64,000 bases of DNA, from assembly GCA_003313425.1 (NCBI GenBank), contig NHZP01000006.1:1488001-1552000 (forward strand). Reading direction: 5' to 3'. Positions 8,696 to 48,100 of the stretch are shown here, piece by piece. The stretch's first letter is position 1, and every line of letters begins with the position of its first letter. The notes beneath the pieces are model-generated. The model had not been told where the DNA came from and ran no database searches. It saw only the letters and a list, made by a program, of their open reading frames with translations. Made by a program: the position numbers and the translations under genes. This DNA comes from Pseudopyrenochaeta lycopersici. Lineage: Eukaryota > Ascomycota > Dothideomycetes > Pleosporales > Pseudopyrenochaetaceae.

Positions 8696-10559
8696 TGTGT
8701 TGGTGGCAAAGTTGGATTTCAAGTGGAATGAGGAGAAAGAATGTGTAAGGTCAGATCAGTGTTGTGAAGGGCTATATAAACACATTGTGGCCAAGTACCA
8801 GAGCGGAAGGAGCCCTGTTTGTATTTCTTGGCATTGGCGCGATGTGTACCATTCGCGTGAGTTTGTGAGGAGTCGAGTTTCACAGGTAATTCATCTCCGA
8901 AAAATTTAGGAAAGCTCTCCTTCACTACTGTAATATCAAGGAGTTCGATAAATATCCTTGATTATGCCCGAAACTGTGTCGTTCCAGATTGAGTTTACAC
9001 CTTTGATGCCAATAATAAACTGCTATCACGACTCTCAAATCCTAGACTAAAGCACGAAGAAAACTGTCGGAAATTTGGTTAAAATGTGAGATCAATGGAC
9101 ATTGTGTCCTGTACTTCCTCGCCTGAAATGTGGTGACGGGAAATGCATCGGCAAGACATATTATACATATACCACGAACTACGCAGTTCCAATCTGTAGT
9201 ACGACAAGCCAAACCACGACTCTTACAATCCAGGGCTATCTAGGAGACTTTGACACCCTACAGAGCAACCGGTGAAATAGACACAAAGCAGTGAGAGCGG
9301 AACCTGAGTAGCGTTTGCAGTCCACTGTTGATTGATTCAAAGAGGAAGGTCTGTGTTTATGGTGTTGTCACTGGTAAGAGGTTGGTGGCCTCCCTGTGCA
9401 GTCGATTTTCGGAGGCTCGCCCTAAAACTCGGTTCTATACTTATTCCCATGTCCATCAATCGCACATCGATATCGAGATAGTCAGCTATATAGCCATACA
9501 TCAGCTTTGAATATTATATCAGTATATCTTGCTGAGTTTTTGGGCTGGGATCGGAAAGATACAAATGCAAATTTTCAGTTTGGCCTTCCGTCTTTCACCT
9601 TCAACACTTCCCTAACTTTTCATGACGCGCTCCCGGAACGACAACAAACTCTCACCAATAGTAGAAGCGCACTGATTGGCTCCTTCCCTACCAAACAGGC
9701 AGCAGGCGCGCCTTCAGATCAACTTCTCCATCACGTGAATTGTTGATCTGGCGACGAAGGCCCGTGCCGGCTACAGATAAAAGGGCCCTGCCATCCCACC
9801 GCCTCTTTTCTTTCTTCATCCGACCGTACGGCTGCAGATGGAGCATTGCGCTCTGCTTGTAGGGTGTATCTACCTTCATGATAGCGGTCCAGGGTGTTCC
9901 CCTTGCAAATCAAAACCTGGTGGCGTGCAAGCTGCAGTACATCATTGGCTCAGTGCTTCTTGTCCCAGGGACATATCTATTATATAACCCCAAATTATAT
10001 TCTTCATTACCCACTCACATACTTTGCTTGTGATGCCTTATATACGCTGCAGTGCATTTGGCGAGCCTTCCAAATTGCGGAGCTGTTTACTATAACCGGA
10101 CTACTCACCTTCACTTCTAACGAGCTATTGAACGTGTAGTTGCTGTATATTCTATTCTTTACCTAAGTCATCTTACTTTACTTACGAATGTCGTGCGCCT
10201 TGAAATTAACACGCAGAGGAAGCCTCCTTTGTGTCTGCTAAACTTTAGACACTGCCCACCGCACAATTGGTACCAGTATTTATGGAACATAACGGCAGAG
10301 CTTGAAAAGCTATGGAAATATCGACTTGGATGTCGCCTCAAGCATGATGGACACGTACCTGTACTTTGGGAGGAGATATAGATTGCACAGCCTGGAGCTG
10401 GAAAGGGCTGTCATTATCTCCGGGTTTTGATTCAGCTAGTGGGAAAGGTAAGAGAAAATTTGATGCATAGAAGCCATCGGCAAACAGGTTGTTCGCTGAT
10501 ACAACAGAGTTCGTTCCAGATGGCAATGTTTATCGTCCTACCGTCTTTTGAAAAGCCTC
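8696..10559. other. Intergenic, left flank of the copia insertion
   Basis: No gene is recognised on either strand; the ORFs are short and lack splice context. The last five bases (10555-10559, GCCTC) are one half of a target-site duplication whose partner is at 39724-39728 on the opposite strand. Confidence 0.5.
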
Positions 10560-10682
10560 TGTTAGCCAACACGGTTAGCTCCTCACGTGCTCTGTTATAT
10601 AAGCATCCACAGGGTATATAGTTCCCTTGTGTCTCATTTGATAGGAATCAACCTAGTTCCTCCTGCCTGCTGCCCACCAACA
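10560..10682 (+). repeat. 5' LTR of left copia copy (A-type)
   Basis: This 123-bp LTR carries an E-box-like CACGTG (10584-10589) and a TATA-like TTATATAAGC (10595-10604). It is identical, read by eye, to the LTR at 39729-39851 of the other element. It differs from the LTR at 15847 in two places: GATAG versus a T-run, and CCCACC versus CCCGCC. Confidence 0.93.
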
Positions 10683-10683
10683 G

Positions 10684-10695
10684 TTATGAGCCCGG
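10684..10695 (+). other. Primer-binding site, half-tRNA type
   Basis: TTATGAGCCCGG directly follows the LTR (one base gap). It is complementary to the anticodon-arm sequence of initiator tRNA-Met (CCGGGCTCATAA), as in Drosophila copia, which primes from a 5' half of that tRNA. The mirror copy is at 45021-45032. Confidence 0.7.
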
Positions 10696-10898
10696 TTTGC
10701 ACCTCCTAAGCTACGCAACTCTGCACGAATATAGCTTTAGACGTGTAACTGATAACAACTACGTTCACCTTTACCCGTTGTGTCTATTGACAGCTAGGTC
10801 AGCGTCAAAGACCTATATAGTCGACAAGTGTCGCTATTTAACCAGAACTGTTGCTCTCCGCATAGAGATCAGTTTGGTGATTGATCACTGAGATCACG

Positions 10899-12458
10899 AT
10901 GTCGTACAACGACGCAGGAGTCACACGAGTGACTGTTTTACTGGATAAACCAGCCGACTGGGAGTCGTGGTTCCAGCTACGACGAGAGAAAGCTGTCGTA
11001 GATGGCATTTGGAAGTACCACGACATCTCAAAACCAAAGGATGAGCTACCAAAGCTTAGAGAACCAACTAGACCGTTACCTAGCGATATACGGCCAGGAG
11101 CGACAGAGATCAGCCAGCTAGACGCAGCTGAAAAGGCATTATACAGTGATCTCCTTCAAGACTGGAGATACAAAAGAGCAGAGTATATGAAACTTAAGCA
11201 GAAGGATGGTGAGCTCCTTCTTGACATCAGCCGTACGATTGCTGCTCGACACCTTTACCTTATTAGCGGAAAAGATGAGGCGTACGATCGACTGGTCACT
11301 CTCAAGAAGCAGTTTGCGCTAACAGCTGCCTCACGAAGCAGAGAGCTGACTATCAAATATCGAGCTCTGCAGGACGGTCCTCAGAGTCGAGATCTTGAGC
11401 AATGGCTTAACGACTGGATTCACATTACCAACCAAGGCGGGGAGGCAGGTCTCCCTGAAACAACAGGTTATCGAGCTCAAGAGGATTTCCTGACATCTAT
11501 CAGGACGATTGCCCCTGAATGGGCCGCGTCGTCGCACCATGACCTTATCAAAAAGGAGACCTTAGACAAGACGAATGAGATTCAACCTCTAGCAGACTAT
11601 ATAGCTCAGTTCAGGGTCTATTATCGACGAATTGGGCCTAGTGCAACGTCGCTTGGCACGTTTGCAACACTCGGTGTTTCAAACAGAACAGACCAGAAGA
11701 ACCAGAAGGACCAGAAGGAGCAGAGATCATCAAAATCAGCTCATAAGCCAGAATGTCTCTGCGGAGGTATGCATTGGTACAGGGAGTGCTGGTACCTGTT
11801 TCCAGATCATCCAAAGAGACCAGAGAGCTTTCGACCTGTCAAAGCTGTACAGGATAGGATAGCTGAGGCCTTGAAGAACCCAGAGCAGGTTAAAAGGATC
11901 AACAAGCTCCTCGCTCGTCACGGCAAGAAAATCAAGGGCGTGGATGAGCCAATAAGCCTTGACAGTGGAAAGGAGAGCCAGGGGGGCAGTTTTGCGACCT
12001 ACAGCTCCTTCTCCGTCACTCAGGTGCAACCAAAAACGCTGCCAACGATCATTAATCGATGGATCCTTGACCCAGGCTCAAACATCCATATATGCAATTC
12101 AAGGAGGTTTGGCTGGCGAGAGACAAGGCAGGCTACAGCCCAGGAAACAGTGCTTGCAGGAGACTCAATTCTAGCAATACAGGCCTGGGGAGAGGTTGTG
12201 TTCAAGGTCAATCGACCGTCTGGAATAAGTCAGATTAAGCTGACTAATGTGGCCCTTATAGAAGGCTTCTTTACAAACGTTATAAGCCTCTCAAGATGCC
12301 GAGAAATAGGCATTCAGTTCGACTCAGGACGAGATGTCATATACAAGCAGCATCCGTCAAACGTCACATGCCTACTTAGGTATAGAGAAGGACACTGGAT
12401 CGTTGATGCTGACGAGAACGATCGTCTAGCACTGAGTAGCTTTGCAACAGCTCTTTAA
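10899..12458 (+). CDS. Copia gag, zinc knuckle and protease
   Basis: 519 codons are open from ATG 10899. The upstream in-frame codon at 10881 is TTG, so the ATG is preferred. A gag-like helical region comes first, then a variant zinc knuckle C-x-C-x3-H-x4-C (ECLCGGMHWYREC, about residue 287). The aspartic protease start is WILDPGSNIHICN (about residue 388); Asp-Pro-Gly-Ser replaces the usual Asp-Ser/Thr-Gly. Family knowledge: gag packages the RNA and the protease cuts the polyprotein. The stop at 12456-12458 falls in what should be a continuous gag-pol frame. The same frame continues into integrase sequence, so the stop is probably a C to T lesion (CAA to TAA). The equivalent region at 43258-44817 is decayed. 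Confidence 0.88.
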   Translation: MSYNDAGVTRVTVLLDKPADWESWFQLRREKAVVDGIWKYHDISKPKDELPKLREPTRPLPSDIRPGATEISQLDAAEKALYSDLLQDWRYKRAEYMKLKQKDGELLLDISRTIAARHLYLISGKDEAYDRLVTLKKQFALTAASRSRELTIKYRALQDGPQSRDLEQWLNDWIHITNQGGEAGLPETTGYRAQEDFLTSIRTIAPEWAASSHHDLIKKETLDKTNEIQPLADYIAQFRVYYRRIGPSATSLGTFATLGVSNRTDQKNQKDQKEQRSSKSAHKPECLCGGMHWYRECWYLFPDHPKRPESFRPVKAVQDRIAEALKNPEQVKRINKLLARHGKKIKGVDEPISLDSGKESQGGSFATYSSFSVTQVQPKTLPTIINRWILDPGSNIHICNSRRFGWRETRQATAQETVLAGDSILAIQAWGEVVFKVNRPSGISQIKLTNVALIEGFFTNVISLSRCREIGIQFDSGRDVIYKQHPSNVTCLLRYREGHWIVDADENDRLALSSFATAL

Positions 12459-13240
12459 GGAGCGTACAAGGTCTCACGGGAAGATCGACGTCCAATTGCC
12501 GCATCTTATGTTGAAGCTCATGAGATGTTTGCACACGCGAGCAAGGAGGCAATTGATTACTTAAATGCGAACGTACGAGGAATCAACCTTGAGCAAGGAG
12601 CTCGAGCACCGCAGCTGCGAGAATGCGAGACCTGTATTGAGTCAAAGTCGACAGCTTAGGTCAGTAGGCGTCAATCAGACAATTGAGCTACAAGGCCTTT
12701 CTATAGGATTGTAGTTGATCTTGTACAGCTGATCCTAACAGGAGAAACGTGCTATAACGGAGATTGTTACCTCCTGCATGCTGTATGCGAGTTCTTAAGG
12801 TGGTATGAGGCGACGACTCTTACTAATAAAACACTACCTGTTGTGATAGCAGCGTTGCGAGCGCTGATAAATAAGATTGAACGCTAGTATGGACATACTG
12901 TCGTTATCCTTAAGGTTGACGGCGATTGCGGGTACGGCTTACAGCTCTATGAGATCGCGAGGCAGGCTGGCCTCAAGGTTGAGCTTCGAGCCCCTGACAC
13001 GCCTGAACAGCTAGGAGCCGTAGAGTAAGCAGGGAACGTGATCATGACAAGAGCAAGATCACTTCGAATTAAGGCAGGACTGCCAAAGTCGCTGTTAAAT
13101 GAGCTAGCAGTTACAGCAGCTCGAATCGTCAATGTTACGCCTACCAAGTCAATCGCATGGAAGACGCCATATGAGCTAGTCTATGGCAGGCAGCCTTCAG
13201 TTGCCCACTTCTCACAGATAGGCTGCAAAGCCTATGTCCT
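12339..13240 (+). pseudogene. Copia integrase segment, decayed, identical to the other copy
   Basis: In the gag frame this encodes the end of protease, the integrase zinc-binding region (H...H...CETC near 12509-12640) and part of the catalytic core. The frame is broken by TAA 12456, TAG 12657, TGA 12684, TAG 12885 and TAA 13026, each explainable by one C:G to T:A change. Read against 42476-43377 I found no difference over 902 bases. The sequences on both sides differ between the copies, marking this as the exchange or conversion tract. Confidence 0.8.
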
Positions 13241-15779
13241 AAATAAGAAGCTAAAGAAAGCAGATAAGCTTAAGTCTCGTACATTCATAGGATACCTCAC
13301 AGGGTACGACTCAACAAATATCTTCCGCATCTGGCTGCCAAAGAAGAGCCAGGTAATACGCGTGAGAGACGTAATATTTCAGAAGAACAGCCTTTTCAAC
13401 GACCACAAGAAAGCTGAGAGAGAAGCTATCGTACGAGAAGATATTAACTATCTCAACATACCCCAGGTACAGGAGATAGAGGCTGATCAAGAGATACTGC
13501 AGAACCAGAGGCATCAGCTCAACGATAAGACAGCTCGTTCTACAGAGATAGCTGAAAACAACACAGTAGCAGAGTTCCATAAGGACTAGGGCTTTCTACT
13601 AACACCAGAACCATCAGATCGTAGTACTGCACCACCTCAACAGGAGGCAGGCGACAATAGAGAACCAGACCAAGCTACAGAGCTAGTAGAACAGGTCAGT
13701 GCTGAAGATCAAGGCACTGAGGAACAGGTTCAAGAACAGCTGCTTGATGAGCTGCAGACACATCATGAGGATGACACGTCTACAGTTACAAGTAGACCAG
13801 ATAGACCACTTAGGCCAGCTGCAACAGGCAGGCGAGGCCGACCACGAAAGCTACCATCTAAGTGGCCTAGAGGATGGAGCAATACAGACGACTATGTACC
13901 TAATCGTCAGCAGAACAATGCACCAAAGATGGCTAATCCTGCTGTTAGAAGTAGTAGCAACATTGTAGAAGGGAAGAGAGCTAGGAGGCTAGCTAACCAG
14001 GCCCTAGCTACATACTACAGAGCATTCGCAGTGGCATTGAATCCAACAGCTCCTTTGAAGCTCGCAGGTGAGATGCCTAGGTTAAGGCTACATCGTGATC
14101 AACTACCAGAACCGCCAAAACGATGGAAGGATATAAAGGATCATCCATTTAGTGCTGAGTTTAGAGAGGCAGCACGAGCAGAGCTTGACAGCTGCTGGTC
14201 AAAAGATTGCTTTAAGCGTACAGAGGTTACTGCAACGACAGCAGATGCTAAGGTTCTACCCCTAATATAGGTGTTCTCATACAAGTTTAACGAAGACAGG
14301 TACCTATACAAGTTTAAGGCGCGTATATACGTACGAGGAGACCTGCAGGAGGCATGGGGTGAGACGTATACTGCAACGTTAGCTATTAAGGTCTTTCAAT
14401 CTCTTGTAGCATTAGCAGCAGTATTTAACCTAAAGATATTTCAGTTCGACGCCCTAAACGCCTTTCTTAACGCTCAACTACCACGCAAGATATACTGTCG
14501 TACGCCTAAAGGGTTCACAGACGAGTTTAGCAAGCTTCTTAAGCTTCAGCGAGCGCTCTATAGCCTCAAAGAAGCACCACTGCTGTAGTACCAGGAGCTC
14601 TCATTAACCTTAAAGAAGCTTAGGTTAAGGCCTGTGCTAGGAGCACCGTGCCTATACACGAACAACCATCTGATCGTCTTTTTCTATGTAGACGATATCG
14701 TCGTCCTCGTCCATCCGCTCAATATAAGCTACTACCAGACGTTCAAGCAACAGATGCTTAGAACGTACGAGATCCGTGAGCTAGGCGAGCTAAAGTGGTT
14801 CCTTAGCATCCGTGTGATCCGCGAGGAGCTTACTCAATCAATCTACCTAGCACAAGACTCATTCATTAATAAGATCGCAGCGAAATTCAATCTTAAGGAG
14901 AACACAAGATACCCAGATGTGCCACTAAGGGACAACGTCCTCCTGCCTTCAACAGAGGAACTAAGTGCTGCTCAAACACAAAAGTATCAGCAACTAGTTG
15001 GCTCACTGGCGTATATCTCAACCTCGACGCGACCAGACGTCGCAAGAGCGCACTTAATCCTTGCACGCCACCTACAGAATCCAGGGCAAAAGCACCTGCA
15101 CGCTGCCAACCATGTGTGGAGATACCTAATAGGCACAAAGCACCTAGCTATTCGAGCGTCAGGGGACATCCAGCACAGCATAACTAGCATCACATCACCA
15201 GCTCAGCAGGAGCTAGACCAAGAACCTCTCTTTTATGGTGCATCAGATGCGGCCTTCGCAGATAAGCCTAAAACTCGCCGAAGCTCTCAAGGCTACATCT
15301 TTAAACTATATGGACTGCCTATTGACTGGAAGGCAACAGTCCAACAATCAGTTACAAAATCAACTACTAAGGCTGAGCTGCTATCTCTATCCCTTGCAGG
15401 ATCAGAGATAGAATGGTGGCAACGCTTCTTTCAAGCTATTCAATTTAACCCTGAGTTTACACCAGCACTGTAGTGTGATAACCAGCAGACTATCTTAATC
15501 GTGACAAAGGCAGTTGACAAGCTTCAGACGAAGCTAAAGCATGTGGACGTACATCATCATTAGTTACGTCAGGAGGTAGCAGAAGGCAGACTGCAGGTAG
15601 ACTAGAAGGCTACTACAGAGATGCCAGCTAACAGCCTTACAAAGATCCTTAGTCGACAGAAGCACGCTGACTTCGTACGCCAGCTAGGACTAAGTGACCT
15701 ATCAAGGATTCGAGAGGAATCAGAGAGTACTGCTCTTAGTCTGCAGGACCTGGGGGGGTGGTACTACCAACTACAGTAG
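13241..15779 (+). pseudogene. Copia pol (integrase C-terminus, RT, RNase H), decayed
   Basis: This is homologous to the intact ORF at 39919-42678. Six tryptophan codons have become TAG (13587, 14268, 14586, 15471, 15561, 15603), and there are many further G to A and C to T changes, often TG to TA or CA to TA. The RT box YVDD (near 14687) is still readable. An 18-bp repeat unit present in the other copy is missing near 13797. It cannot encode a working protein as it stands. Confidence 0.9.
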
Positions 15780-15846
15780 AGGCAGATGCTTGAGGACCTT
15801 CATTTACAGCTTTTGTTGCTCTTCATTCACTCAAGCTGGGGGGGTG

Positions 15847-15970
15847 TGTTAGCCAACACGGTTAGCTCCTCACGTGCTCTGTTATATAAGCATCCACAGG
15901 GTATATAGTTCCCTTGTGTCTCATTTTTTTAGGAATCAACCTAGTTCCTCCTGCCTGCTGCCCGCCAACA
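15847..15970 (+). repeat. 3' LTR of left copia copy (B-type)
   Basis: This 124-bp LTR is identical, read by eye, to the LTR at 45034-45157 of the other element rather than to its own 5' partner. It is preceded by a G-rich polypurine tract (about 15836-15846). The bases after it (15971-15975, GAGCG) complement the CGCTC at 45158-45162. Confidence 0.93.
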
Positions 15971-16310
15971 GAGCGGTTGCACATCTTTATTCATTTTGAT
16001 TCACTTAGAATATGTCTCCAGTATAGTGCAAAGAGCTTGCGATAAGAAAGTATTTCACGATATTCCCAAGGGGAGGGGAGTGCTATGGCAACGCTGGTCC
16101 AGCACAGGTTACTACAAACAGTGAGAGAGGCCGATTGCTTGGACCCACTTTCTGCTTGGGCGCGCACCATCACAAGATAAAACTGCACCCGCGCATCTCA
16201 TATTTGCATTCTCCTCGCCACATTTTATGTTCTGCTCAACCGATCCTAAAACGGAGCAACATTCTACTCAACTATCATCGAACCACTCCTGAAGACACTC
16301 TATCGCCACG

Positions 16311-19691: not shown

Positions 19692-21327
19692 ATGGCGGAC
19701 GAGAAACAGGTTATAGATGGTCCGGAAAACACGCCCAAAACACTCGAGGAACTAAAGCACACGAGAACAATCGATACTATTCATCAAGATGAAGCTCTCC
19801 GGGTTCTTGCACAGTATGCTGGAGACGAAAGCTGGACGCCAGATGAGGAGAAGAAGTTGGTCCGCAGGCTAGACAAGAAACTAATTTCCCTTTTGATTAT
19901 CACATATGGGCTTCAATATTATGACAAGGCCATGCTGTCACAAGCGGTGAGTCTATTTCTAATTACCTTTCAGATGGCAACTGACTGAAGCTTGCAGGCA
20001 CTTTTTGGGTTGCGAACAGACCTAGGCCTTACCACTGGAAACCGATACTCATTCTCCGCCTCCATATTCTACCTCGGATTCATTGTTGGCAGCTACCCAG
20101 CAATACTTATGGCTCAGCGTTGGCCGATCGAGCGAGTCGCATTCGGTATCGTTTTCGTCTGGGGAGTGTGTCTAATGTGCTCCGCCGCCTGCACCGACTG
20201 GAAAACTTTCTATGCACAGCGCTTCTTCCTGGGTTTCTTGGAATCTGGAGTATCCCCAATGTTCATGCTCATCGTAGGCGGCTGGTACAAGAAGCGAGAG
20301 CAAGCACTTCGTATGGGTGCCTGGTACTGTGCCACAGGCTACGTCTCCGCAGTCTCCCCATTAATTAACTACGGCCTCGGCCACATCACCGGCGGGGGCC
20401 TTAGCAGCTGGCAATATATGTACATCGTTGCTGGAGTCATCACCGTCCTCTGGGCATTTGTCATTTTGTTCTTCATGCCCCCAGACCCGATTCGGGCAAG
20501 AGGCTTCAGCGACCGTGAGCGATACATTGCCGTTGCCCGGATGAAGGAAAATAATTCGGGAGTTCGCAATAAACACTTCAAGATTGAACAGGTCGTGGAA
20601 TCGCTTTACGATATCAAGTTTTGGTTAATCTTCTCCATTGCATTTCTCATGATGATTGCAAACGGCCCAGTCTCAAGCTTCATTCCTATCATAATCTCAG
20701 GGTTCGGATTTAATCGCCTCAATTCACTGCTTCTCACGATGCCGGCAGGTGCTATAATTGGCTCCATCGAACTCACTGCTCCATACCTTGCCTACAAGTT
20801 CTCTGGTATTCGGACTTGGCTCATCGTTATCTGTCAGTGCGGAACCATCATCGCTTCGATTCTTTTGTGGCAATTACCACGAAGCGAAAAAGGCGGACTT
20901 CTCTTCGCATGTTATATCCTGGCTTCTTTTGGCGGGGCTTACGCGGTCTTGATGGGACTTCAAATCGCGAACACAGCCGGGTACACCAAGCGCTCGGTGA
21001 CTTCCTCAGGCATTTTCGTGGGCTACTGCCTTGGTACGTACTTCCATAACATGACTCTGGATCACTAAATTGTGACTAATTGTGTGCATAGGCAACTTTG
21101 CCGGGCCATTACTCTTCAAACCAGAAGACGCTCCTGGGTACGCTCCGGGGTTTATCGCTGTTCTTGGAACCTCTATTGGGGCTGCAGTCCTCGCGATTGT
21201 CTATCGCTATGTTTGCATATGGGAAAACCGAAAACGAGATAAGACTGGCACCCTTGAAGGCTTTGATCATGCTTACGAGGATGACCTTACCGATATGAGG
21301 AATCCTCAATTCAGGTATACATTATAG
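19692..21327 (+). CDS. MFS transporter, allantoate permease (ACS) family
   Basis: Model: join(19692..19946, 19998..21033, 21092..21327), 508 aa. Both introns have GTGAGT/GTACGT donors and AG acceptors, and the frame is kept. The N-terminal tail of about 65 residues is polar and cytosolic. Family signatures follow: KLISLLIITYGLQYYDKAMLSQA in the first helix, a GLTTGNRYS loop, FYLGFIVGSYPA, FLGFLESGVSPMFMLIVGGWY, and a helix ending WAFVILFFMPPDP before the central loop. The C-terminal half shows the second set of helices, giving about 12 in all. Members of this proton-coupled anion:cation symporter family carry allantoate, nicotinate, pantothenate and other organic anions across the plasma membrane. 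The substrate here cannot be told from sequence. Confidence 0.9.
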
Positions 21328-22063: not shown

Positions 22064-22813
22064 TTACTTGGCATTCGCCAATACCCTCCTTCCTACACCT
22101 GCAGTTCTTGTAGCCGCGCCCGCAGCTGCACCGGCACCCGCAGCTGCACCCATGTTACTCACCACAAACTGCGCAGCTTCATCTGCATTCCGTCCATAAC
22201 TCAAATGCGGTGCCAAGACAACTGCCTGTCCAGCACATATGAGGTCTCCTGTAGCACAAATGATCTTCGTGTTCGCAGCAGGGACGTTGCCAACAGCATC
22301 CCCGTTGTCAGGGTCGCCGAAAATGACTGCGGAGGATACGAAGGCGGAGTCCTGTGCACTGAGCATATCGGCTGCGTTATGGACGAGCTGGCCTCCTTGT
22401 CTTTTATTTCAATTAGACTCTAATCAAGTGACAGGGTAACGGAGAGTGAAGCAAACGTACGAATAGCCAGCCATAACCAAAGCTGTATCCGGGCATTGTG
22501 CCCTAACCTGGCCAACCATCTGCGCCATCAAAGCACTTCCTCTTCTATCCCCTCCCGCCAGGAAACCGGCAACATTAGCAGGGTACTCGATGCCCTGAAC
22601 AGCGACGTTGGCGGCGCCGCCCATCATTTGGCCTATGGCGCTGACAAAGGGTGGCCCAGCGATCGTCCCCATGTTGCCGGCCTCAGTAGTACCACGGGCG
22701 AAGAGGACAGTCATTGCTTTGCAACCGCCGCCTCCTGTGACATCGTTTTGGGTTGATGATGACAGTGCAGCAAGGGTAAGGGTCGGGAGGCTGAGAAGGG
22801 TGAGGGACTTCAT
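22064..22813 (-). CDS. Cutinase-family serine esterase (CE5), secreted
   Basis: Model: complement(join(22064..22400, 22461..22813)), 229 aa, with a 60-bp intron that splits the catalytic serine codon region. An N-terminal signal peptide (MKSLTLLSLPTLTLAALSSS) is followed by C31...VLFARGTTE, typical of CE5. The nucleophile motif is GYSQG at 116-120 (Ser118), the acid is in CATGDLIC (Asp170), and the base is His183 in PHLSYG. Cysteines 31/107 and 166/173 match the two family disulfides, so the catalytic set is complete. CE5 enzymes hydrolyse cutin polyester or acetylated xylan outside the cell; cutinase is the better guess from the GYSQGG and GDP contexts. An Ala/Gly-rich segment sits near the C-terminus. 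Length is normal for the family. Confidence 0.92.
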
Positions 22814-24259
22814 GGCTGTAGAATTACAGGTTGGTATATTAGAAGAGACAGACGAATGATTAATTTACTATTGAATGTATGACTAGAATGAAGGAGAGCC
22901 TGCCTGAGGTCTGAAAAGAGAGAAAATAGGGTCTGGGTATAAGGATACTTCCAGGCGATTCACAGAGTTCACGCCTTCTTGTACCGCAGTGCCACTGGAA
23001 TTCCCAAGTGGAGCTGCCGAGGTATACATGCAGGCATTGAAAAGCCGACCTCATAATAAACATTTGTCATGTTTCGTTGTTGCTCCCAAGATTGCTTTTA
23101 GAACACCATGCTGTGAGTTGAGGTAGGCCAAGATGTCGGAGAATACTACACCAATAATGGCTGTGCAAGGTCTTCCACGCTAAAAGAAGCTTTTTTCGGA
23201 CATTTTTGACAAGGGCTCAAGGATTGGTTGCCTGTTGGGCTGCATATGACAGCCGGTACAACGGTTAACCTAGTGAAGCCGCGACAGAAACTGTCAGTAG
23301 AAGCGGCGGAGTTTCCGTTCTAGTATCGGCCAAGGCCATCAATGGTCAGTTAGGCGCCTAAGTAGGGCATCTGAGGAAGTCATAACGCGTTTGACATCGT
23401 GTTTCGAAGCATCTAGTCTTCCCAGATCGTGTGCGCAGTGGAATCGCTGGCGACACAGACAATGCTCAAGGTATGAACAACGCAGGCTGTCAATGAAGTA
23501 CCTTGGGTATGCAGAAATGTAGTCATATTCCTTATATTTCGAGTCTTGTAGGCGGCATTGGCGAAAGTACATTCTAAAGAGAGAAGCCGCAAATCCGAGG
23601 TTGTTTCAGCGCTGGAATCAACAAGACACGAATCGTATCATGTTTCATCGATCATCCTGAGCCCTGTTTCAAACTCGCGGTATGGCGATCTTCCGTGCCT
23701 TATTGTCGTTGGGGAACACAGCATTCATGCGTCGAAGCTGAAGGCTTGATGGGCTTGTTTAGTCGATCAGGCCACGTGACCTCCACAGTGGTTAGCATGC
23801 GTGAGAGGAAACACCAAGGCGAAACTGCCCATTGCTTACGCGTTCGCAGGTCATAACCAAGAGAACCTTGGATCGCTGGCATTTCTTGACTGCATTTCGG
23901 AGTTCGGCATTGTACTCGCGAGGTCCCGGGTTCTGTGGCTGCAGAAATTGTGGCTACCGCAGCAGCCCAACATTTGCGACTCAAAATGAAAGGGCGGTCT
24001 TTTAAAATAAAAGGCCATTGTGACCTCACGGCATCTGCAACCCAAAGTCACCGGTTTTCATATAGAAGGGCGGAGGTTGACTCATTCGGCATTCGGTACC
24101 TACGGGTGTGGAGCAGTAAGCGCCCCGCCAGACTAAAGGCGGAAGGTGTATTTCTGTATCTTCGAAGCCTTGCAGCTGTCAACATCTGGACATAAAATCA
24201 AGGCAATAACAGCAATTAAGTCTATCCGGCTGAACATATTCAACTCGAAATCATTCACC
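22814..24259. other. Intergenic, divergent promoter region
   Basis: This 1.45-kb stretch lies between the minus-strand cutinase and the plus-strand GNAT gene. No coding signal is recognised in it. Confidence 0.45.
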
Positions 24260-24962: not shown

Positions 24963-25094
24963 AGTGGATGGAGCTAAATGGGGGACGAGAAGTCAGATCG
25001 TATGCTTTTGGATAGGGCCCCACAGCAGTACGGTATTATACGACATTAGGAGGTTTCTCTTACTGTACAAAAAGAGAGCTTCTTGGGTAACGCA

Positions 25095-25748
25095 TCATGT
25101 AATCCTCGCGATGCGTTTTTTGTCCGCCCCTACTTGAATCTCCACTTCCCTCTCCTCTCCAAGCCTATGCACATGTTTCATAAACTCCAAATGATCACCG
25201 TCTGCCTCTGTATACATTGTTTTAGCCAGCCATTCGAGGCGAAAAACCCTGAGTGCCGTAGCTTCGTCAAGCATGTCAAAGAAACGATCAACATGCTTTT
25301 GGTAGTCCGGCGTAATCATACGTGCAGGTTGCACAAGCGTAATGGATTTCACTTCACTGATCGCACCGCCGACGACCTCAAAAAAAGTGGTGCCGGTGTC
25401 AACGCAAAGGATTCTGATAGTTTTGGTGGCACAGAGGTAGGAAAGGGCTTCCATTCGGATTTGGGCACAGACGCGGAAAAGTGGGAGATTGAGCGCAGAC
25501 GCACCAAGGTGTTCGGCCTTTACGCAGTTGGCGACGGTAATTACTTTGAGCTCCGAGTAGATGGCGTAGGAGTATATTTGATTGCGGATCTCGCCTGGCA
25601 GCATGAGAAAGCGAGAGCGACTGTTGTCTCCTCGGGGCTGAAGGCAGATTAGCATGGTGAACAAATTCCGGATTGACATACTTATTACCATTGATGAGGG
25701 TTGATCCCTCTGGCCAACGTAGCTGCGAAGCCATTTCCTCAAACTCAT
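25095..25748 (-). CDS. 2EXR-domain protein (F-box-like, fungal)
   Basis: This is a single-exon ORF of 217 aa. The core SRFLMLPGEIRNQIYSYAI, followed by LPLFRVCAQIRMEALSYLCATKTIRI, is the 2EXR signature common in Dothideomycetes and Leotiomycetes. There a short F-box-like 'LPxEIRxxIY' helix is followed by 'LLxVCRQIRxEAL'. Function is unknown for the family; an adaptor role like F-box proteins has been suggested by resemblance only. No signal peptide or membrane segment is seen. The ATG at 25748 is used, but Met20 or Met24 could equally be the start because the first residues add nothing conserved. Confidence 0.72.
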   Translation of the reverse strand: MSLRKWLRSYVGQRDQPSSMVISMSIRNLFTMLICLQPRGDNSRSRFLMLPGEIRNQIYSYAIYSELKVITVANCVKAEHLGASALNLPLFRVCAQIRMEALSYLCATKTIRILCVDTGTTFFEVVGGAISEVKSITLVQPARMITPDYQKHVDRFFDMLDEATALRVFRLEWLAKTMYTEADGDHLEFMKHVHRLGEEREVEIQVGADKKRIARIT

Positions 25749-39151: not shown

Positions 39152-39728
39152 AAAGCCACCTGCTTTTGTTACTTAGTTTTTCGTTTATCTCTTTTATATG
39201 TACGCTGTTTGTTTGGGGTATAGGCTGAATATATTTCTACAGCAAAGTCTGCGTCCTTCCGAAAATCAATCTTATCGTACTATTCCATCCGCTTGCATTG
39301 GTATGCAGTCCGTTCTTGTATCACTACACCTATTTGTCTCCTTAATGAAGTTCGCTCTTGGATTTTGGTACAGATACCGCTTTTCAGCTGTTTGGCTTGC
39401 CTGAGTCCACTCGCCGCTGCTCTAATTATGTCCGTCTTATCTGCTAATAGGAAAACGTGGAAACCCCTCGTACATTCGGCCACACAAGCCAAAGCAGCCA
39501 AATATTTTGCCTGCGTGCCCTTCCCACCACGCGTTCAACACACCATTATATCTAAGATGACTCTGGCGCAGTCATTCTGACAGCAATGGTGGTATCGGAA
39601 GTGGACCAAAGAGCTTATAAAGTGAATATGAAGTGCGGTGGCTGACTTTCGGTCGTTTTATGAGGATTTTCCAATCGACTTTTAGCCGTGTGATGGGACT
39701 TTGGAGCGCGCTTCATGGAATTTGAGGC
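39152..39728. other. Intergenic flank of right copia copy
   Basis: No gene is recognised. The last five bases (39724-39728, GAGGC) are the reverse complement of the GCCTC that precedes the left element. Confidence 0.5.
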
Positions 39729-39851
39729 TGTTGGTGGGCAGCAGGCAGGAGGAACTAGGTTGATTCCTATCAAATGAGACACAAGGGAACTATATACCCT
39801 GTGGATGCTTATATAACAGAGCACGTGAGGAGCTAACCGTGTTGGCTAACA
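39729..39851 (-). repeat. 3' LTR of right copia copy (A-type)
   Basis: This 123-bp LTR is identical by eye to the LTR at 10560-10682 and differs from its own partner at 45034. Confidence 0.93.
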
Positions 39852-39918
39852 CACCCCCCCAGCTTGAGTGAATGAAGAGCAACGAAAGCTGTAAATGAGT
39901 GTCCTCAAGCGTCTGCCT

Positions 39919-42678
39919 CTACTGTAGTTGGTAGTACCACCCCCCCAGGTCCTGCAGACTGAGAGCAGTACTCTCTGATTCCTCTCGAATCCTTGATAGG
40001 TCACTTAGTCCTAGCTGGCGTACGAAGTCAGCGTGCTTCTGTCGACTAAGGATCTTTGTAAGGCCGTCAGCTGGCATCTCTGTAGTAGCCTTCCAGTCTA
40101 CCTGCAGTCTGCCTTCTGCTACCTCCTGACGTAACCAATGATGATGTACGTCCACATGCTTCAGCTTCGTCTGAAGCTTGTCAACTGCCTTTGTCACGAT
40201 TAAGACAGTCTGCTGGTTATCACACCACAGTGCTGGTGTAAACTCAGGGTCAAATTGAATAGCTTGAAAGAAGCGTTGCCACCATTCCATCTCTGATCCT
40301 GCAAGGGATAGAGATAGCAGCTCAGCCTCAGTAGTCGATTTTGTAACTGATCGTTGGACTGTTGCCTTCCAGTCGATAGGCAGTCCATATAGTTTAAAGA
40401 TGTAGCCTTGAGAGCTTCGGCGAGTTTCAGGCTCATCTGCGAAGGCCGCATCTGATGCACCATAAAAGAGAGATTCTTGGCCTAGCTCCTGCTGAGCTGG
40501 TGATGTGATGCTAGTTATGCTGTGCTGGATGTCCCCTGACGCTCGAATAGCTAGGTGCTTTGTGCCTATTAGGTATCTCCACACATGGTTGGCAGCGTGC
40601 AGGTGCTTTTGCCCTGGATTCTGTAGGTGGCGTGCAAGGATTGAGTGCGCTCTCGCGACGTCTGGTCGCGTCGAGGTTGAGATATACGCCAGTGAGCCAA
40701 CTAGTTGCTGATACTTTTGTGTTCGAGCAGCACTTAGTTCCTCTGTCGAAGGCAGGAGGACGTTGTCCCTTAGTGGCACATCTGGGTATCTTGTGTTTCC
40801 CTTAAGATTGAATTTCGCTGCGATCTTATTAATGAATGAGTCCTGTGCTAGGTAGATTGATTGAGTAAGCTCCTCGCGGATCACACGGATGCCAAGGAAC
40901 CACTTCAGCTCGCCTAGCTCACGGATCTCGTACGTTCTAAGCATCTGTTGCTTGAACGTCTGGTAGTAGCTCATATTGAGCGGATGGACGAGGACGACGA
41001 TATCGTCCACATAGAAAAAGACGATCAGACGGTCGTTCGTGTATAGGCACGGTGCTCCTGGCACAGGCCTCAACCCAAGCTTCTTTAAGGTTGATGAGAG
41101 CTCCTGGTACCACAGCAGTGGTGCTTCCTTAAGGCCATAGAGCGCTCGCTGAAGCTCAAGAAGCTCGCCAAACTTGTCTGTGAACCCTTCAGGCGTACGA
41201 CAGTATATCTTGCGTGGTAGTCGAGCGTTAAGAAAGGCGTTTAGGGCGTCGAACTGAAACATCTTCAGGTTAAATGCTGCTGCCAATGCTACAAGAGATC
41301 GAAAGACCTTAATAGCTAACGTTGCAGCATACGTCTCACCCCATGCCTCCTGCAGGTCTCCTCGTACGCATATACGCGCCTTAAACTTGTATAGGTACCC
41401 GTCTTCGTCGAACTTGTATGAGAACACCCACATTAGGGGTAGAACCTCAGCATCTGCTGTCGTTGCAGTGACCTCCGTACGCTTGAAGCAATCTTTTGAC
41501 CAGCAGCTGTCAAGCTCTGCTCGTGCTGCCTCTCTAAACTCAGCACTAAATGGATGATCCTTCATATCCTTCCATCGTTTTGGCGGTTCTGGCAGTTGAT
41601 CACGATGTAGCCTTGACCTAGGCATCTCACCTGCGAGCTTCAAAGGAGCTGTTGGATTCAATGCTACTGCGAATGCTCTGTAGTATGTAGCTAGGGCCTG
41701 GTTAGCTAGCCTCCTAGCTCTCTTCCCTTCTACAATGTTGCTGCTACTTCCGACAGCAGGATCAGCCATCTTTGGTGCATTGTTCTGCTGACGATCTGGT
41801 ACATAGTCGTCTGTATTGCTCCATCCTCTAGGCCACTCAGATGGTAGCTTTCGTGGTCGGCCTCGCCTGCCTGTTGCAGCTGGCCTAAGTGGTCCATCTG
41901 GCCTACTTGGTCCATCTGGTCTACTTGTGACTGTAGACGTGTCATCCTCATGATGTGTCTGCAGCTCATCAAGCAGCTGTTCTTGAACCTGTTCCTCAGT
42001 GCCTTGATCTTCAGCACTGACTTGTTCTACCAGCTCTGTAGCTTGGTCTGGTTCTCCATCGTCGCCTGCCTCCTGTTGAGGTGGTGCAGTACCACGATCT
42101 GATGGTTCTGGTGTTGGTAGAAAGCCCCAGTCCTTATGGAACTCTGCCACCGTGTTGTTTTCAGCTATCTCTGTAGAACGAGCTGTCTCATCGTTGAGCT
42201 GATGCCTCTGGTTCTGCAGTATCTCTTGATTAGCCTCTATCTCCTGTACCTGAGGTATGTTGAGATAGTCAATATCTTCTCGTACGATAGCTTCTCTCTC
42301 AGCTTTCTTGTGGTCGTTGAAAAGGCTGTTCTTCTGAAATATCACGTCTCTCACGCGTATCACCTGGCTCTTCTTTGGCAGCCAGATGCGGAAGATATTC
42401 GTTGAGTCGTACCCTATGAGGTATCCTATGAATGTACGAGACTCAAGCTTATCTGCTTTCTTCAGCTTCTTATTCAGGACATAGGCTTTGCAGCCTATCT
42501 GTGAGAAGTGGGCAACTGAAGGCTGCCTGCCATAGACTAGCTCATATGGCGTCTTCCATGCGATTGACTTGGTAGGCGTAACATTGACGATTCGAGCTGC
42601 TGTAACTGCTAGCTCATTTAACAGCGACTTTGGCAGTCCTGCCTTAATTCGAAGTGATCTTGCTCTTGTCATGATCAC
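39919..42678 (-). CDS. Copia pol: integrase C-terminus, reverse transcriptase, RNase H (open)
   Basis: This is a 919-codon open frame; its first ATG is internal to the integrase core, so it is a polyprotein fragment rather than a complete gene. It begins with the integrase core end (PYELVYGRQPS...GCKAYV) and a Gln/Glu-rich linker with an 18-bp repeat. A reverse transcriptase follows: FDALNAFLNARLP, YGLKEAPLLWYQ, and the catalytic FFYVDDIVVLV. RNase H has its acidic set in ASDAAFAD, TEAELLS and CDNQQ, then the HHHWLRQE and ADGLTK motifs. Upstream in the same frame the 902-bp tract has stops, so full gag-pol cannot be made. It is likely a formerly active copy. Confidence 0.9.
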   Translation of the reverse strand: MIMTRARSLRIKAGLPKSLLNELAVTAARIVNVTPTKSIAWKTPYELVYGRQPSVAHFSQIGCKAYVLNKKLKKADKLESRTFIGYLIGYDSTNIFRIWLPKKSQVIRVRDVIFQKNSLFNDHKKAEREAIVREDIDYLNIPQVQEIEANQEILQNQRHQLNDETARSTEIAENNTVAEFHKDWGFLPTPEPSDRGTAPPQQEAGDDGEPDQATELVEQVSAEDQGTEEQVQEQLLDELQTHHEDDTSTVTSRPDGPSRPDGPLRPAATGRRGRPRKLPSEWPRGWSNTDDYVPDRQQNNAPKMADPAVGSSSNIVEGKRARRLANQALATYYRAFAVALNPTAPLKLAGEMPRSRLHRDQLPEPPKRWKDMKDHPFSAEFREAARAELDSCWSKDCFKRTEVTATTADAEVLPLMWVFSYKFDEDGYLYKFKARICVRGDLQEAWGETYAATLAIKVFRSLVALAAAFNLKMFQFDALNAFLNARLPRKIYCRTPEGFTDKFGELLELQRALYGLKEAPLLWYQELSSTLKKLGLRPVPGAPCLYTNDRLIVFFYVDDIVVLVHPLNMSYYQTFKQQMLRTYEIRELGELKWFLGIRVIREELTQSIYLAQDSFINKIAAKFNLKGNTRYPDVPLRDNVLLPSTEELSAARTQKYQQLVGSLAYISTSTRPDVARAHSILARHLQNPGQKHLHAANHVWRYLIGTKHLAIRASGDIQHSITSITSPAQQELGQESLFYGASDAAFADEPETRRSSQGYIFKLYGLPIDWKATVQRSVTKSTTEAELLSLSLAGSEMEWWQRFFQAIQFDPEFTPALWCDNQQTVLIVTKAVDKLQTKLKHVDVHHHWLRQEVAEGRLQVDWKATTEMPADGLTKILSRQKHADFVRQLGLSDLSRIREESESTALSLQDLGGWYYQLQ

Positions 42679-43377
42679 GTTCCCTGCTTACTCTACGGCT
42701 CCTAGCTGTTCAGGCGTGTCAGGGGCTCGAAGCTCAACCTTGAGGCCAGCCTGCCTCGCGATCTCATAGAGCTGTAAGCCGTACCCGCAATCGCCGTCAA
42801 CCTTAAGGATAACGACAGTATGTCCATACTAGCGTTCAATCTTATTTATCAGCGCTCGCAACGCTGCTATCACAACAGGTAGTGTTTTATTAGTAAGAGT
42901 CGTCGCCTCATACCACCTTAAGAACTCGCATACAGCATGCAGGAGGTAACAATCTCCGTTATAGCACGTTTCTCCTGTTAGGATCAGCTGTACAAGATCA
43001 ACTACAATCCTATAGAAAGGCCTTGTAGCTCAATTGTCTGATTGACGCCTACTGACCTAAGCTGTCGACTTTGACTCAATACAGGTCTCGCATTCTCGCA
43101 GCTGCGGTGCTCGAGCTCCTTGCTCAAGGTTGATTCCTCGTACGTTCGCATTTAAGTAATCAATTGCCTCCTTGCTCGCGTGTGCAAACATCTCATGAGC
43201 TTCAACATAAGATGCGGCAATTGGACGTCGATCTTCCCGTGAGACCTTGTACGCTCCTTAAAGAGCTGTTGCAAAGCTACTCAGTGCTAGACGATCGTTC
43301 TCGTCAGCATCAACGATCCAGTGTCCTTCTCTATACCTAAGTAGGCATGTGACGTTTGACGGATGCTGCTTGTATAT
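42476..43377 (-). pseudogene. Copia integrase segment, decayed, identical to 12339-13240
   Basis: It has the same five in-frame stops as the left copy and no difference seen in 902 bases. The first differences are at 42475 (silent, CTG versus CTA) and 43378 (T versus C). Confidence 0.8.
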
Positions 43378-44817
43378 AACATCTCGTCCTAAGTCAAACT
43401 GAATGCCTATCTCTCAGTATCTTGAGAGGCTTACAACGTTTGTAAAGAAGCCTTCTATAAGAGCCACATTAGTCAGCTTAATCTAACTTATTCTAGACAG
43501 TCAATTAACCTTAAATACAACCTCTCCCTAGGCCTGTATTGCTAGGATTAAGTCTCCTGCAAGCACTGTTTCCTAGGCTGTAGCCTGCCTTGTCTCTCGC
43601 CAGCCAAACCTCCTTAAATTGCATATATGGATGTTTGAGCCTAGGTCAAGGATCCATCGATTAATAATCGTTGGCAGCGTTTTTGGTTGCACCTAAGTGA
43701 CGGAGAAGGAGCTGTAGGTCGCAAAACTGCCCCCCTAACTCTCCTTTCCACTGTTAAGGCTTATTAGCTTATCCACGCCCTTAATTTTCTTGCCGTGACG
43801 AGCGAGGAGCTTATTAATCCTTTTAACCTGTTCTAGGTTCTTTAAGGCCTTAACTATCCTATCCTGTACAGCTTTAACAAGTCAAAAGCTCTCTAGTCTC
43901 TTTAGATGATCTAGAAATAGGTACTAGCACTCCCTATACTAATGCATACCTCTGCAGAGACATTCTAGCTTATGAGCTGATTTTAATGATCTCTGCTCCT
44001 TCTGGTCCTTCTGGTTCTTCTGGTCTGTTCTGTTTAAAACACCGAGTGTTGCAAACGTGCTAAGCGACGTTGCACTAGGCCCAATTCGTCGATAATAGAC
44101 CCTGAACTAAGCTATATAGTCTGCTAGAGGTTGAATCTTATTCGTCTTGTCTAAGGTCTCCTTTTTAATAAGGTCATGGTGCGACGATGCTGCCTATTCA
44201 GGGGCAATCGTCCTAATAGATGTTAGGAAATCCTCTTAAGCTCGATAACCTGTTGTTTCAGGGAGACCTGCCTCCCCGCCTTAGTTGGTAATGTGAATCT
44301 AGTCGTTAAGCCATTACTCAAGATCTCGACTCTGAGGACCGTCCTGCAGAGCTCAATATTTAATAGTTAGCTCTCTGCTTCGTAAGGCAGCTGTTAGCGC
44401 AAACTGCTTCTTAAGAGTGACCAGTCGATTGTACGCCTCATCTTTTCCGCTAATAAGGTAAAGGTGTCGAGCAGCAATCGTACGGCTGATGTCAAGAAGG
44501 AGCTCACCATCCTTCTGCTTAAGTTTCATATACTCTGCTCTTTCGTATCTCTAGTCTTAAAGGAGATCACTATATAATGCCTTTTCAGCTGCGTCTAGCT
44601 AGCTGATCTCTGTCGCTCCTGGCCGTATATCGCTAGGTAACGGTCTAGTTAGTTCTCTAAGCTTTAGTAGCTCATCCTTTAGTTTTAAGATGTCGTGGTA
44701 CTTCTAAATGCCATCTACGACAGCTTTCTCTCGTCGTAGCTAGAACCACGACTCCCAGTCGGCTGGTTTATCCAGTAAAACAGTCACTCGTGTGACTCCT
44801 GCGTCGTTGTACGACAT
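43378..44817 (-). pseudogene. Copia gag and protease, decayed
   Basis: This is collinear with 10899-12338 (same length, no indels seen) but carries many TAG/TAA codons where the left copy has CAG, CAA or TGG. For example, Gln (CAG) becomes TAG near 44741 and Trp becomes TAG near 44706. The changes are C:G to T:A, many in CA/TG context. The start codon position (44815-44817) is kept. Confidence 0.88.
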
Positions 44818-45020
44818 CGTGATCTCAGTGATCAATCACCAAACTGATCTCTATGCGGAGAGCAACAGTTCTGGTTAAATAGCGACACTTGTCGACTATA
44901 TAGGTCTTTGACGCTGACCTAGCTGTCAATAGACACAACGGGTAAAGGTGAACGTAGTTGTTATCAGTTACACGTCTAAAGCTATATTCGTGCAGAGTTG
45001 CGTAGCTTAGGAGGTGCAAA

Positions 45021-45032
45021 CCGGGCTCATAA
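45021..45032 (-). other. Primer-binding site, half-tRNA type (right copy)
   Basis: CCGGGCTCATAA on the plus strand, next to the LTR. It is the mirror of the site at 10684-10695. Confidence 0.68.
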
Positions 45033-45033
45033 C

Positions 45034-45157
45034 TGTTGGCGGGCAGCAGGCAGGAGGAACTAGGTTGATTCCTAAAAAAATGAGACACAAGGGAACTATA
45101 TACCCTGTGGATGCTTATATAACAGAGCACGTGAGGAGCTAACCGTGTTGGCTAACA
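45034..45157 (-). repeat. 5' LTR of right copia copy (B-type)
   Basis: This 124-bp LTR is identical by eye to the LTR at 15847-15970. The adjacent 45158-45162 is CGCTC. Confidence 0.93.
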
Positions 45158-48100
45158 CGCTCTTTGGCAACCGCGAGACACGGTCAGGAGTGAATGTGCA
45201 TCCGACGTACCATTATCCATGCATTTTGTTTCCTCAAGGCACCTTCCAGATTTTTCTCTCAGATTCTCTTGCCATTTACCTCTTCAAACTCCAGTAGCCA
45301 TTGGAAACTCTCCCGTTACGGTAATCAACTCTGCTTTTTCTTTCACGGTTTCCCTGGTCATGAAACTTTAATATTCCGTTGCAACAAACAGTAAACAATA
45401 GTTTAACATGATCTTAGTACGGTATGTCCTTTTTGTCATTTGTGAAATGCTTTCTGTCTGCGCAGCTAAGATTGTGTGAGTTGTTGCGCCTGAGCCTCCA
45501 TTCCCCAGTCGAATACGTGGTTCCGTCTTTTAATTCCGATGATTCAATAGTGAACCCTCAATTTAAACTACTGGATCTGTTACCGAATTTTACACGTATA
45601 CAAGAGTGTAAACTTGATAACGAATACCAAGCGAAAGACTGAGAACGAATACTGAAGGCAGTGCCGTGTGCTACAAAGATGCTGCTTCGAATTGACCTAC
45701 GAATTGAATTATTATTGATTGCACGCCAGTACATAAATTATGCTCTTTCCAGACACATTTATCTCACCTTCGCTCAATCATCCACCCTCCTTCACCGTCT
45801 CTCAAGTCACACAGCACCCCCACACCCCATTATTCCTCATCTTTATTAGCTAACTTGACCTTTTGTATATATATTTTAACAGTTGATACCTCTTTCATTA
45901 AGCGCGCCACAGCTACAGGGCACAGCGGTTCATCCGCTATTAACAAAAGTTTCCAGGTACGTACTACATTTCTTTATTCTCATCGACAAACCCGCCGCTG
46001 CTGCTCGCCAATTCGACTCCGGATCCAGGAATCAAACAGGTACGTTGTGTATTTCTTTTTGCACTTTCGTTCATGTATTACGGAAGGTGAAGAAGGCAGG
46101 CTAAGGAAGACGGAACCATCACTCGTTATCACCTAAAGCGAGGTCAGTAGGTGGCGCTCTTTTCCATTGGTTCCTATCCTCGAATAAATTTCTTTTTGGA
46201 ATTGCTTGTAAGAAACATTGTATATAGAAGCTGCAATTGTCCAAGCAATCTGCTATATAGTAATGCCGTATTGGCGCACGCGCTTACACAGATAGAGTTT
46301 GGATTTTCTTTCAGAATAGCATGTATAGTAGTTATTGCATCAAAGTAAGCTCCTCAGCTCAAAGCCCTACTAGAGAGATATTCATGTATTGTGGCAAAGC
46401 AGTGTGTTGCGTCGCGTCACGCCCGCGTCAAACCTATTACCAATTGCCGCAACGTAGGCGAAAATATTTGCTTATAATGTTCAAGCGGGGTTGTTCAGCG
46501 CAGCTTCATGCTCAAGCTAGAACTCATGTCAAATCTTCATGAATATACACAAGATTGGGACTTGGGCACTGTAGTTCACAAGCAAAGTCAAAGAAGAAGT
46601 GCCATATCATGCGACAGTTTGAATTGTATGCGTACACTACCACCCCAAAGCAACCAGCGGCATCCCACAGGAAGCTCATCATCCGCAGAGATGATGGCCA
46701 TATCATCATTTCAACGCTTTTGCACAGGAGCACCGCAGAAGCGGTGCCCTGTGCAAAAGCATTGGAGCAATCATAGGGCCATCACCCCTACTGGTGATGA
46801 CCCTCCTGTGGACCCGAAACTGCCCACCAGTGTATCTCAAGAGCACAGGCCCCAACCTCGCCAGGCTCAGTTGTCAGCGCCTTGAAGCTTGTCTGACGTC
46901 CTTGCATTGCATTGAGATCCCCTGTCATAATATAAATACCCAGCTTCTTCCACCATTGCATTGAGAGCGTTGATATTCGGTAGCTATCTATAGGCCCTCA
47001 ACTCGTATCTTTTCGGTGCCGCAGCTTCGTCCAGCCGTGTACGTTTGCGTTGTTATTGTGGATGGTTCTTGCCGTCTATCGTGTGGCTTTATCTTTTGAA
47101 GCCGATTCGCCATGATTGCTAAGAGTCAAATCAGTGGCGTGTATTGCGCAATAGAGTAGTAGAACTCACACATATTGATGCCTCGAATGTGTGAGACTTT
47201 TCAACTAGTAACAACTGTCGGTGAACAGCAGCCTTTGTTACTGAAACAAGGCATGAATATACAACCAAAGGTCAAGCGATGTGCGACTCATGCTCAGACC
47301 TTTTGTTGTTTGTGTGGAGTCCATTTTCTATCAACTGCCTTCACAAGTCAGCGATCCATAAGTGCGGAAGGGTGTGGCTGAATTACGTACCTGACCCTGT
47401 TGACAGCATTATCGAAGCAGGTTTGATGAACCTCGAAGCCTGTCCCAATGGGCCGCTTCAATTGTTTTGATCAGGTTGATTTTCCGTCTGCACATGAAAG
47501 CTTGCTCATGCTTAACGATGATAGTCTCGCGTCCATGGCTGCCAACTAATTTGTACAAGTTTAGTGCTTGTAAATTTGAGACTGAATAATGACTCACAGA
47601 GTATAGGCCCAGAGGTTTGAGGTAGCTCTTGTAGGAAGCAAGGCGAACCAGCATGGGGTTTGAGTCTTCAAGAGAAGGAGTATTTGTTTACTGACGTTGA
47701 GATTCTGCTTCTGCTAAAATCTGTAGCTTTTAACGCTGGCCATATTGCCAAAGGCTAAAAAACAGTAATGTCACCTCATTTGATGGATTGAGGAGAGGAG
47801 GAAAGTTGATGAGATTTTGAAGGAGGTTGGCGTGAGGTGAAGGGGTTTATATAGTGGGGGGAGGGGGGGGGGGGATTCGCCAAGTCCTTAAGTGGAAGGG
47901 ACGTGCCCAGGTGAGTGCGCTGGGACAACTCTATGTGACCGTCAATGAGGCAGTGAAGACAATTTGGTACTTTTGCTTGGAAATCGGTGATGTGGGTTAA
48001 ACTATTTGATGATGCGGAATATCGACCATGTTCACAAGCGATTGCTGAAGCTCAACACGTCTTGGTATGGGATATAGATCCCTTGTCGTTTATTTTCGCA

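Follow-up and report, generated by a model that had tools for sequence, protein, structure and literature searches.

How did two copies of one long terminal repeat (LTR) retrotransposon, facing opposite ways in the genome of the fungus Pseudopyrenochaeta lycopersici, acquire target-site duplications (TSDs) that pair between the copies and not within either of them? The copies, here called LEFT and RIGHT, lie in a window of 64,000 nucleotides (positions 1488001-1552000 of contig NHZP01000006.1, or C6, of assembly GCA_003313425.1, which comprises 62.7 Mb in 188 contigs); coordinates given without a contig name are those of the window. A first-pass annotation proposed that homologous recombination between the two inverted copies had flipped the block that separates them. 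This proposal is supported by four kinds of evidence: (i) crossed TSDs, (ii) crossed LTR alleles, (iii) the polarity of mutations of the repeat-induced point mutation (RIP) type, and (iv) substitutions outside the RIP context. We consider it highly probable that the block was inverted by a crossover between the parental copies of LEFT and RIGHT, designated E1 and E2. The features involved are the following.

10555-10559, plus strand: GCCTC, TSD of parental E1 at the outer left end, read directly
10560-15970 (C6:1498560-1503970), plus strand: LEFT copia element, 5411 bp, chimeric (E1 5' part and E2 3' part)
10560-10682, plus strand: LEFT 5' LTR, allele A, 123 bp, common in the genome
12339-13240, plus strand: 902-bp tract in LEFT identical to RIGHT, crossover zone with probable conversion (derived from element positions 1780-2681)
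15847-15970, plus strand: LEFT 3' LTR, allele B, 124 bp
15971-15975, plus strand: GAGCG, reverse complement of the E2 TSD (CGCTC), read directly
15971-39728, no strand: putative inverted block, 23,758 bp
39724-39728, plus strand: GAGGC, reverse complement of the E1 TSD (GCCTC), read directly
39729-45157 (C6:1527729-1533157), minus strand: RIGHT copia element, 5429 bp, chimeric (E2 5' part and E1 3' part)
39729-39851, minus strand: RIGHT 3' LTR, allele A, 123 bp
42476-43377, minus strand: 902-bp tract in RIGHT identical to LEFT, crossover zone (derived coordinates)
45034-45157, minus strand: RIGHT 5' LTR, allele B, 124 bp
45158-45162, plus strand: CGCTC, TSD of parental E2 at the outer right end, read directly

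Each end of the block is thus occupied by one homologous element, LEFT on the plus strand and RIGHT on the minus strand. The LTRs of this family are 123-124 bp long and run from TGTTAG to CCAACA, starting with TG and ending with CA. The open 922-aa frame of RIGHT, which was the frame scanned against Pfam, contains a copia-type reverse transcriptase domain (RVT_2, 1e-38, residues 411-632) preceded by an SH3_retrovirus domain (residues 52-122). By these features the family belongs to the Ty1/copia type. A match to the opening 30 bases of its LTR occurs at 165 positions in the assembly, 100 of which were listed, and 37 copies including LEFT and RIGHT were examined. The controls comprised 22 other copies read whole and 13 read at their ends, the latter called full-length from LTR spacing alone.

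The four pentamers reported by the first-pass annotation were all found at the positions it gave, and they pair crosswise between LEFT and RIGHT, not within either element. Of 21 other full-length copies retrieved over their entire length, all have identical 5-bp flanks. For the end-only control, 14 LTR pairs were picked by spacing among the matches listed; the flanks matched in 13 of them and differed in one. This last interval, C33:510073-516209, was considered as a second mismatch and rejected, as a complete element and an independent LTR lie next to one another there and both have flanks that match; its element is the 35th control copy. In total, matching TSDs were observed in all 35 other copies examined (22 whole, 13 at the ends), and only LEFT and RIGHT differ; the 5-bp TSD as a family trait held in the same 35 copies. 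One copy, L030 (C35:417766-424644), was left out of this control because a second, reversed copy interrupts it, apparently inserted at element position 1037, and the match of the inner copy ends at element position 1569. It had also been considered as an inverted break, and this candidate was rejected, since the locus reads as a reversed copy within another copy.

Three further features of insertion sites were recorded. The GCCTC and CGCTC duplications are 4/5 G+C, and none of the 35 other TSDs, counted by eye, exceeds 3/5. The G+C content of the flanks is 47% for LEFT and 43% for RIGHT, compared with 23-46% for 21 other copies, so that RIGHT falls within the upper range. At positions 1001-6503 of the sequence L010 (C6:1675088-1680590), a full-length element is separated by 5 bp from a lone LTR in reverse orientation. 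GAATT stands in this gap and on both outer sides, a pattern that looks like reuse of the first insertion's TSD by the second.

The LTRs tell the same story as the flanks. A freshly inserted LTR element has two identical LTRs; therefore LEFT and RIGHT, each with one LTR of either allele, must each be composite or have been altered since insertion. Allele A sits at both GCCTC ends and allele B at both CGCTC ends, and the LTR alleles thus cross as the TSDs do. Allele A is common: among the matches listed, 33 of 41 LTR matches are 100% identical to it. A 29-mer from the T-run of allele B occurs at two positions in the assembly, both in LEFT or RIGHT, by an exact search that a mutated form would escape. 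The idea that allele B is private as a whole was rejected, since its A-to-G change near the LTR end is present in 13 of 21 other copies and the T-run alone was found nowhere else. Scored against the two alleles, both LTRs are closer to A than to B in each of the 21 other copies read whole, and none of these copies carries B.

The interiors of the two elements were compared next to one another along a common element numbering. Their alignment over approximately 5.4 kb shows 205 differing columns, of which 185 are substitutions. Among the RIP-type differences before element position 1780, the T or A is in RIGHT at 75 sites and in LEFT at 5, whereas after position 2681 it is in RIGHT at 10 and in LEFT at 88. 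The best change point falls between 1779 and 2682, with a log-likelihood gain of 72.2; none of 500 shuffles gave more than 8.6. The label RIP rests on the sequence context of the changes: 60 of 74 changes in the E2 5' part and 58 of 88 in the E2 3' part are in the CpA/TpG context, for which approximately 28% is expected from the dinucleotide counts of LEFT.

Substitutions outside the CpA/TpG context were scored separately, with L002 standing for a young lineage made up of the copies L002, L004 and L005. In element positions 1-965, L002 is matched by LEFT alone at five sites, by RIGHT alone at one and by neither at one. In 1660-1779 it is matched by LEFT alone at 4 of 4 sites; in 1780-2681 the two elements have the same base, and L002 another, at 15 of 15 sites; and from 2682 on it is matched by RIGHT alone at 40 of 40 sites. 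Between RIGHT and L002 there are no substitutions after column 2682, and the two share an exact run of 2,848 bp; LEFT and L004 share one of 965 bp. Ectopic homologous recombination between inverted copies predicts exchanged TSDs, which the first-pass annotation had noted, and chimeric copies; copies with complementary halves were found, with a mixed region at element positions 966-1659 that is considered below.

The zone between the two change-point limits is the 902-bp tract in which LEFT and RIGHT are identical. When 185 substitutions were placed uniformly 10,000 times, the largest gap was 417, under a model that ignores clustering of substitutions. The identical tract carries RIP-type T states at 32 (LEFT) and 33 (RIGHT) of 132 C/T sites, compared with 10 of 132 in L002, and in both copies it is at least 31 substitutions away from each of 21 other aligned copies. 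Outside the tract, the LEFT 5' part and the RIGHT 3' part are about as little mutated as L002. Together these states suggest that the sequence of E2 probably replaced that of E1 within the tract, that is, a crossover accompanied by gene conversion. The conversion tract would measure at most 902 bp; if the middle of E1 resembled that of its sister copies, it would extend over approximately 1818-2577, limits set by the outermost sites at which both LEFT and RIGHT differ from at least three of four sister copies.

Several observations weigh against this reconstruction: (i) the derived arrangement alone is known, and from one assembly; (ii) element positions 966-1659 are mixed, for of 19 sites outside the RIP context there, L002 is matched by LEFT alone at 9, by RIGHT alone at 2 and by neither at 8; (iii) the sites outside the RIP context are mostly transitions, with 11 transversions listed; (iv) unequal LTR scores against allele A also occur in 8 of the 21 other copies, none with B; (v) the claim of conversion presupposes a middle of E1 like that of the sister copies; and (vi) the strand bias of E2 reverses, with a C>T to G>A ratio of 52:23 in the 5' part and 17:71 in the 3' part, a flip not usually expected from a single round of RIP. 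The mixed region points either to a mosaic E1 or to an exchange more patchy than one crossover would leave. In this region (window 11525-12218), LEFT carries background variants common to RIGHT and the copy L016 and lacks the RIP changes of RIGHT; judged from these variants, E1 was probably already composed of pieces of several subfamilies before the exchange.

Because of the reversed strand bias, we retain one rival account of the RIP pattern. It holds that RIP acted after a real inversion, on the right-hand half of each element, and that a small RIGHT-to-LEFT conversion followed; it is compatible with the inversion itself. In the present orientation, both E2 parts are indeed mostly G>A on the plus strand of the window (52:23 and 71:17), and in Neurospora 91.9% of RIP clusters have been reported to be confined to one strand (PMC7296669). 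This account would, however, require that the complementary half of each copy was spared, and the RIGHT 3' part equals L002 over 2,848 bp. The lineage change in substitutions outside the RIP context falls in the same zone, and the shared tract contains mostly C>T states, on the strand opposite to that of the LEFT 3' part. We therefore hold RIP after the inversion to be doubtful, while giving it more weight than any of the explanations that follow.

Another rival is an artefact of assembly. An assembler that crossed between two similar inverted repeats would flip the block in the assembly only, and it would yield an identical crossed signature; such mis-joins are likely where two repeats face each other in inverted orientation, and a fungal assembly with erroneous inversions is on record (PMC4971763). 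The control elements speak against it, since all 35 other copies examined were traversed with matching TSDs. Among them, L005 (C6:1629185, minus strand) and L004 (C6:1675088, plus strand) lie approximately 40 kb apart and share an exact run of 4,369 bp, and yet their TSDs match; the longest exact run between LEFT and RIGHT, 902 bp, is shorter, although one correctly assembled pair could be luck. The window contains no N, and a sister-like middle of E1 would additionally have had to vanish from the assembly. From the 35 control copies and the L004/L005 pair, misassembly is judged unlikely, and we allow it a slim chance.

The remaining explanations fare worse. Non-crossover gene conversion might have exchanged parts of the elements while the block was never inverted: in yeast, dispersed repeats undergo non-crossover conversion more commonly than crossover (PMC9879454), and in the crapaud family of Podospora anserina 7 of 150 full copies have unlike LTRs, which was ascribed to conversion or ectopic recombination (PMC10787394). 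Yet the flanking TSD bases lie outside the elements, where conversion between the elements cannot move them, and they are exchanged, which makes this explanation very improbable. That two unrelated insertions lost or mutated their TSDs and match crosswise by chance is conceivable for duplications of merely 5 bp, but the probability of both matches is approximately 1e-6 from the window composition, and the crossed LTR alleles and swapped halves would be left unexplained, so that this reading carries practically no weight. Ty1/copia-type elements integrate from complementary DNA (cDNA), and the insertion of a hybrid element is therefore unsuitable as a source of the crossed flanks. That process, raised for DNA transposons (PMC2775673), also predicts identical copies, whereas LEFT and RIGHT are chimeric.

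Under the crossover interpretation, the events can be arranged in a tentative order. E2 (allele B, TSD CGCTC) would have been inserted on the right and mutated by RIP; E1 (allele A, TSD GCCTC), a little-mutated member of the young lineage, would have been inserted on the left in the opposite orientation. A break, probably in E1, would then have been mended from E2 within the interior of the element, and resolution as a crossover would have flipped the 23,758-bp block and swapped the element halves together with the TSDs. In both copies, a tract no longer than 902 bp would thereafter have had the sequence of E2. We infer that the event was intrachromosomal and recent, with the direction of conversion, the break in E1 and RIP before the exchange as just described. 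RIP states lie within the exchanged tract, hence RIP predates the exchange; the E1 part of RIGHT equals L002 over 2,848 bp and the tract shows no divergence in 902 bp, hence no visible RIP has occurred since. The order of RIP and exchange is less certain than the inversion. A further idea is that the block acts as a reversible switch, in which repeated crossovers, favoured by the 902-bp tract, would maintain both orientations among nuclei or strains, and the patchiness of 966-1659 would stem from earlier rounds; we rate this as slightly more doubtful even than RIP after the inversion.

Since the exchange lies within the elements, the inversion cuts no other gene. The block contains 76 open reading frames (ORFs) of at least 85 aa, of which 25 were scanned against Pfam. 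Among the genes the first-pass annotation had assigned to the block, the MFS transporter and the cutinase were recovered above the Pfam cut-offs and the GH43 and 2EXR assignments only below them, while no CFEM or GNAT domain was found in the 25 ORFs scanned. The recognizable coding features are listed below.

19989-21068, plus strand: MFS transporter ORF (Pfam MFS_1, 1e-30)
22424-22864, minus strand: cutinase ORF (Pfam Cutinase, 9.2e-23)
25095-25811, minus strand: 2EXR-like ORF (Pfam 2.5e-4, below cut-off)
26023-27302, minus strand: GH43-like gene pieces in two ORFs, one with a CBM35/CBM13-like part (below Pfam cut-offs)

The first-pass annotation had also called such base-level proof of the mechanism uncommon. 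This is right in part, for exchanged TSDs and chimeric copies have already been published as the distinguishing marks of 2z3, an inversion of Drosophila buzzatii generated by the transposon Galileo (PMC2775673). The two cases are alike in having copies in opposite orientation, exchanged TSDs, chimerism of both copies and a short interior exchange interval, which is 141 bp in 2z3 (PMC2775673). Galileo, however, belongs to the DNA transposons and has 7-bp TSDs, and for 2z3 the sequence of uninverted chromosomes was obtained as well (PMC2775673), whereas the present case concerns a fungal LTR retrotransposon known in the derived arrangement only, with RIP-marked parents and a visible probable conversion tract. 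In Saccharomyces cerevisiae, crossover between inverted Ty1 elements on one chromosome arm likewise inverts the segment between them and yields hybrid elements and crossover-associated conversion; there the breaks were induced by Cas9 in the laboratory (PMC9879454), and the present event is natural.

Partial parallels have been described in filamentous fungi and plants. The crapaud elements of Podospora anserina also form an LTR family affected by RIP, with disparate ends in 7 of 150 full copies, but the available text of that report gives neither paired crossed TSDs nor the inversion of a specific block (PMC10787394). In Verticillium dahliae, rearrangements including six inversions were tied to repeats and homology-based repair; those breakpoints came from strain comparison, and the term "target site" is absent from the available text (PMC4971763). 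For an inversion in SD6, a segmental duplication of Colletotrichum higginsianum, homology-based recombination at a fragment of a DNA transposon (Helitron type) was suggested as a possibility only, and the available text gives no TSD evidence (PMC5576322). In plants, homologous unequal recombination is known to yield intact LTR elements that lack TSDs and have mismatched flanks; in the available text, however, they are classed singly, without a reciprocal partner with complementary TSDs, and the word inversion is absent (PMC7251063). LTR phylogeny has been proposed as a means of seeing recombination between elements, with the detection of inversions named as future work (PMC2672092), and the accessible part of PMC3026039 holds nothing on exchanged TSDs. 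Among the titles and beginnings of abstracts listed, in a search that covered subscription journals thinly, we found no paper on a filamentous fungus in which an inversion is reported with exchanged TSDs.

The process is thus already known, and the present record of it is unusually complete and well resolved. One assembly preserves the parental halves, the crossover interval, the probable conversion tract and the probable order of exchange relative to RIP for a natural fungal inversion. RIP is generally held to restrain ectopic recombination, since it drives the copies apart in sequence; here the exchange appears to have taken place between a RIP-mutated and a fresh copy, and the present copies are 185 substitutions apart in approximately 5.4 kb. 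The combination of crossed TSDs, crossed LTR alleles and a switch in RIP polarity could be applied to long-read fungal assemblies in a search for such inversions without a relative. The family has five full-length copies, in both orientations, within the approximately 182 kb of C6 1498560-1680590, and the three other than LEFT and RIGHT keep matching TSDs; with five copies so placed, further rearrangements are possible.

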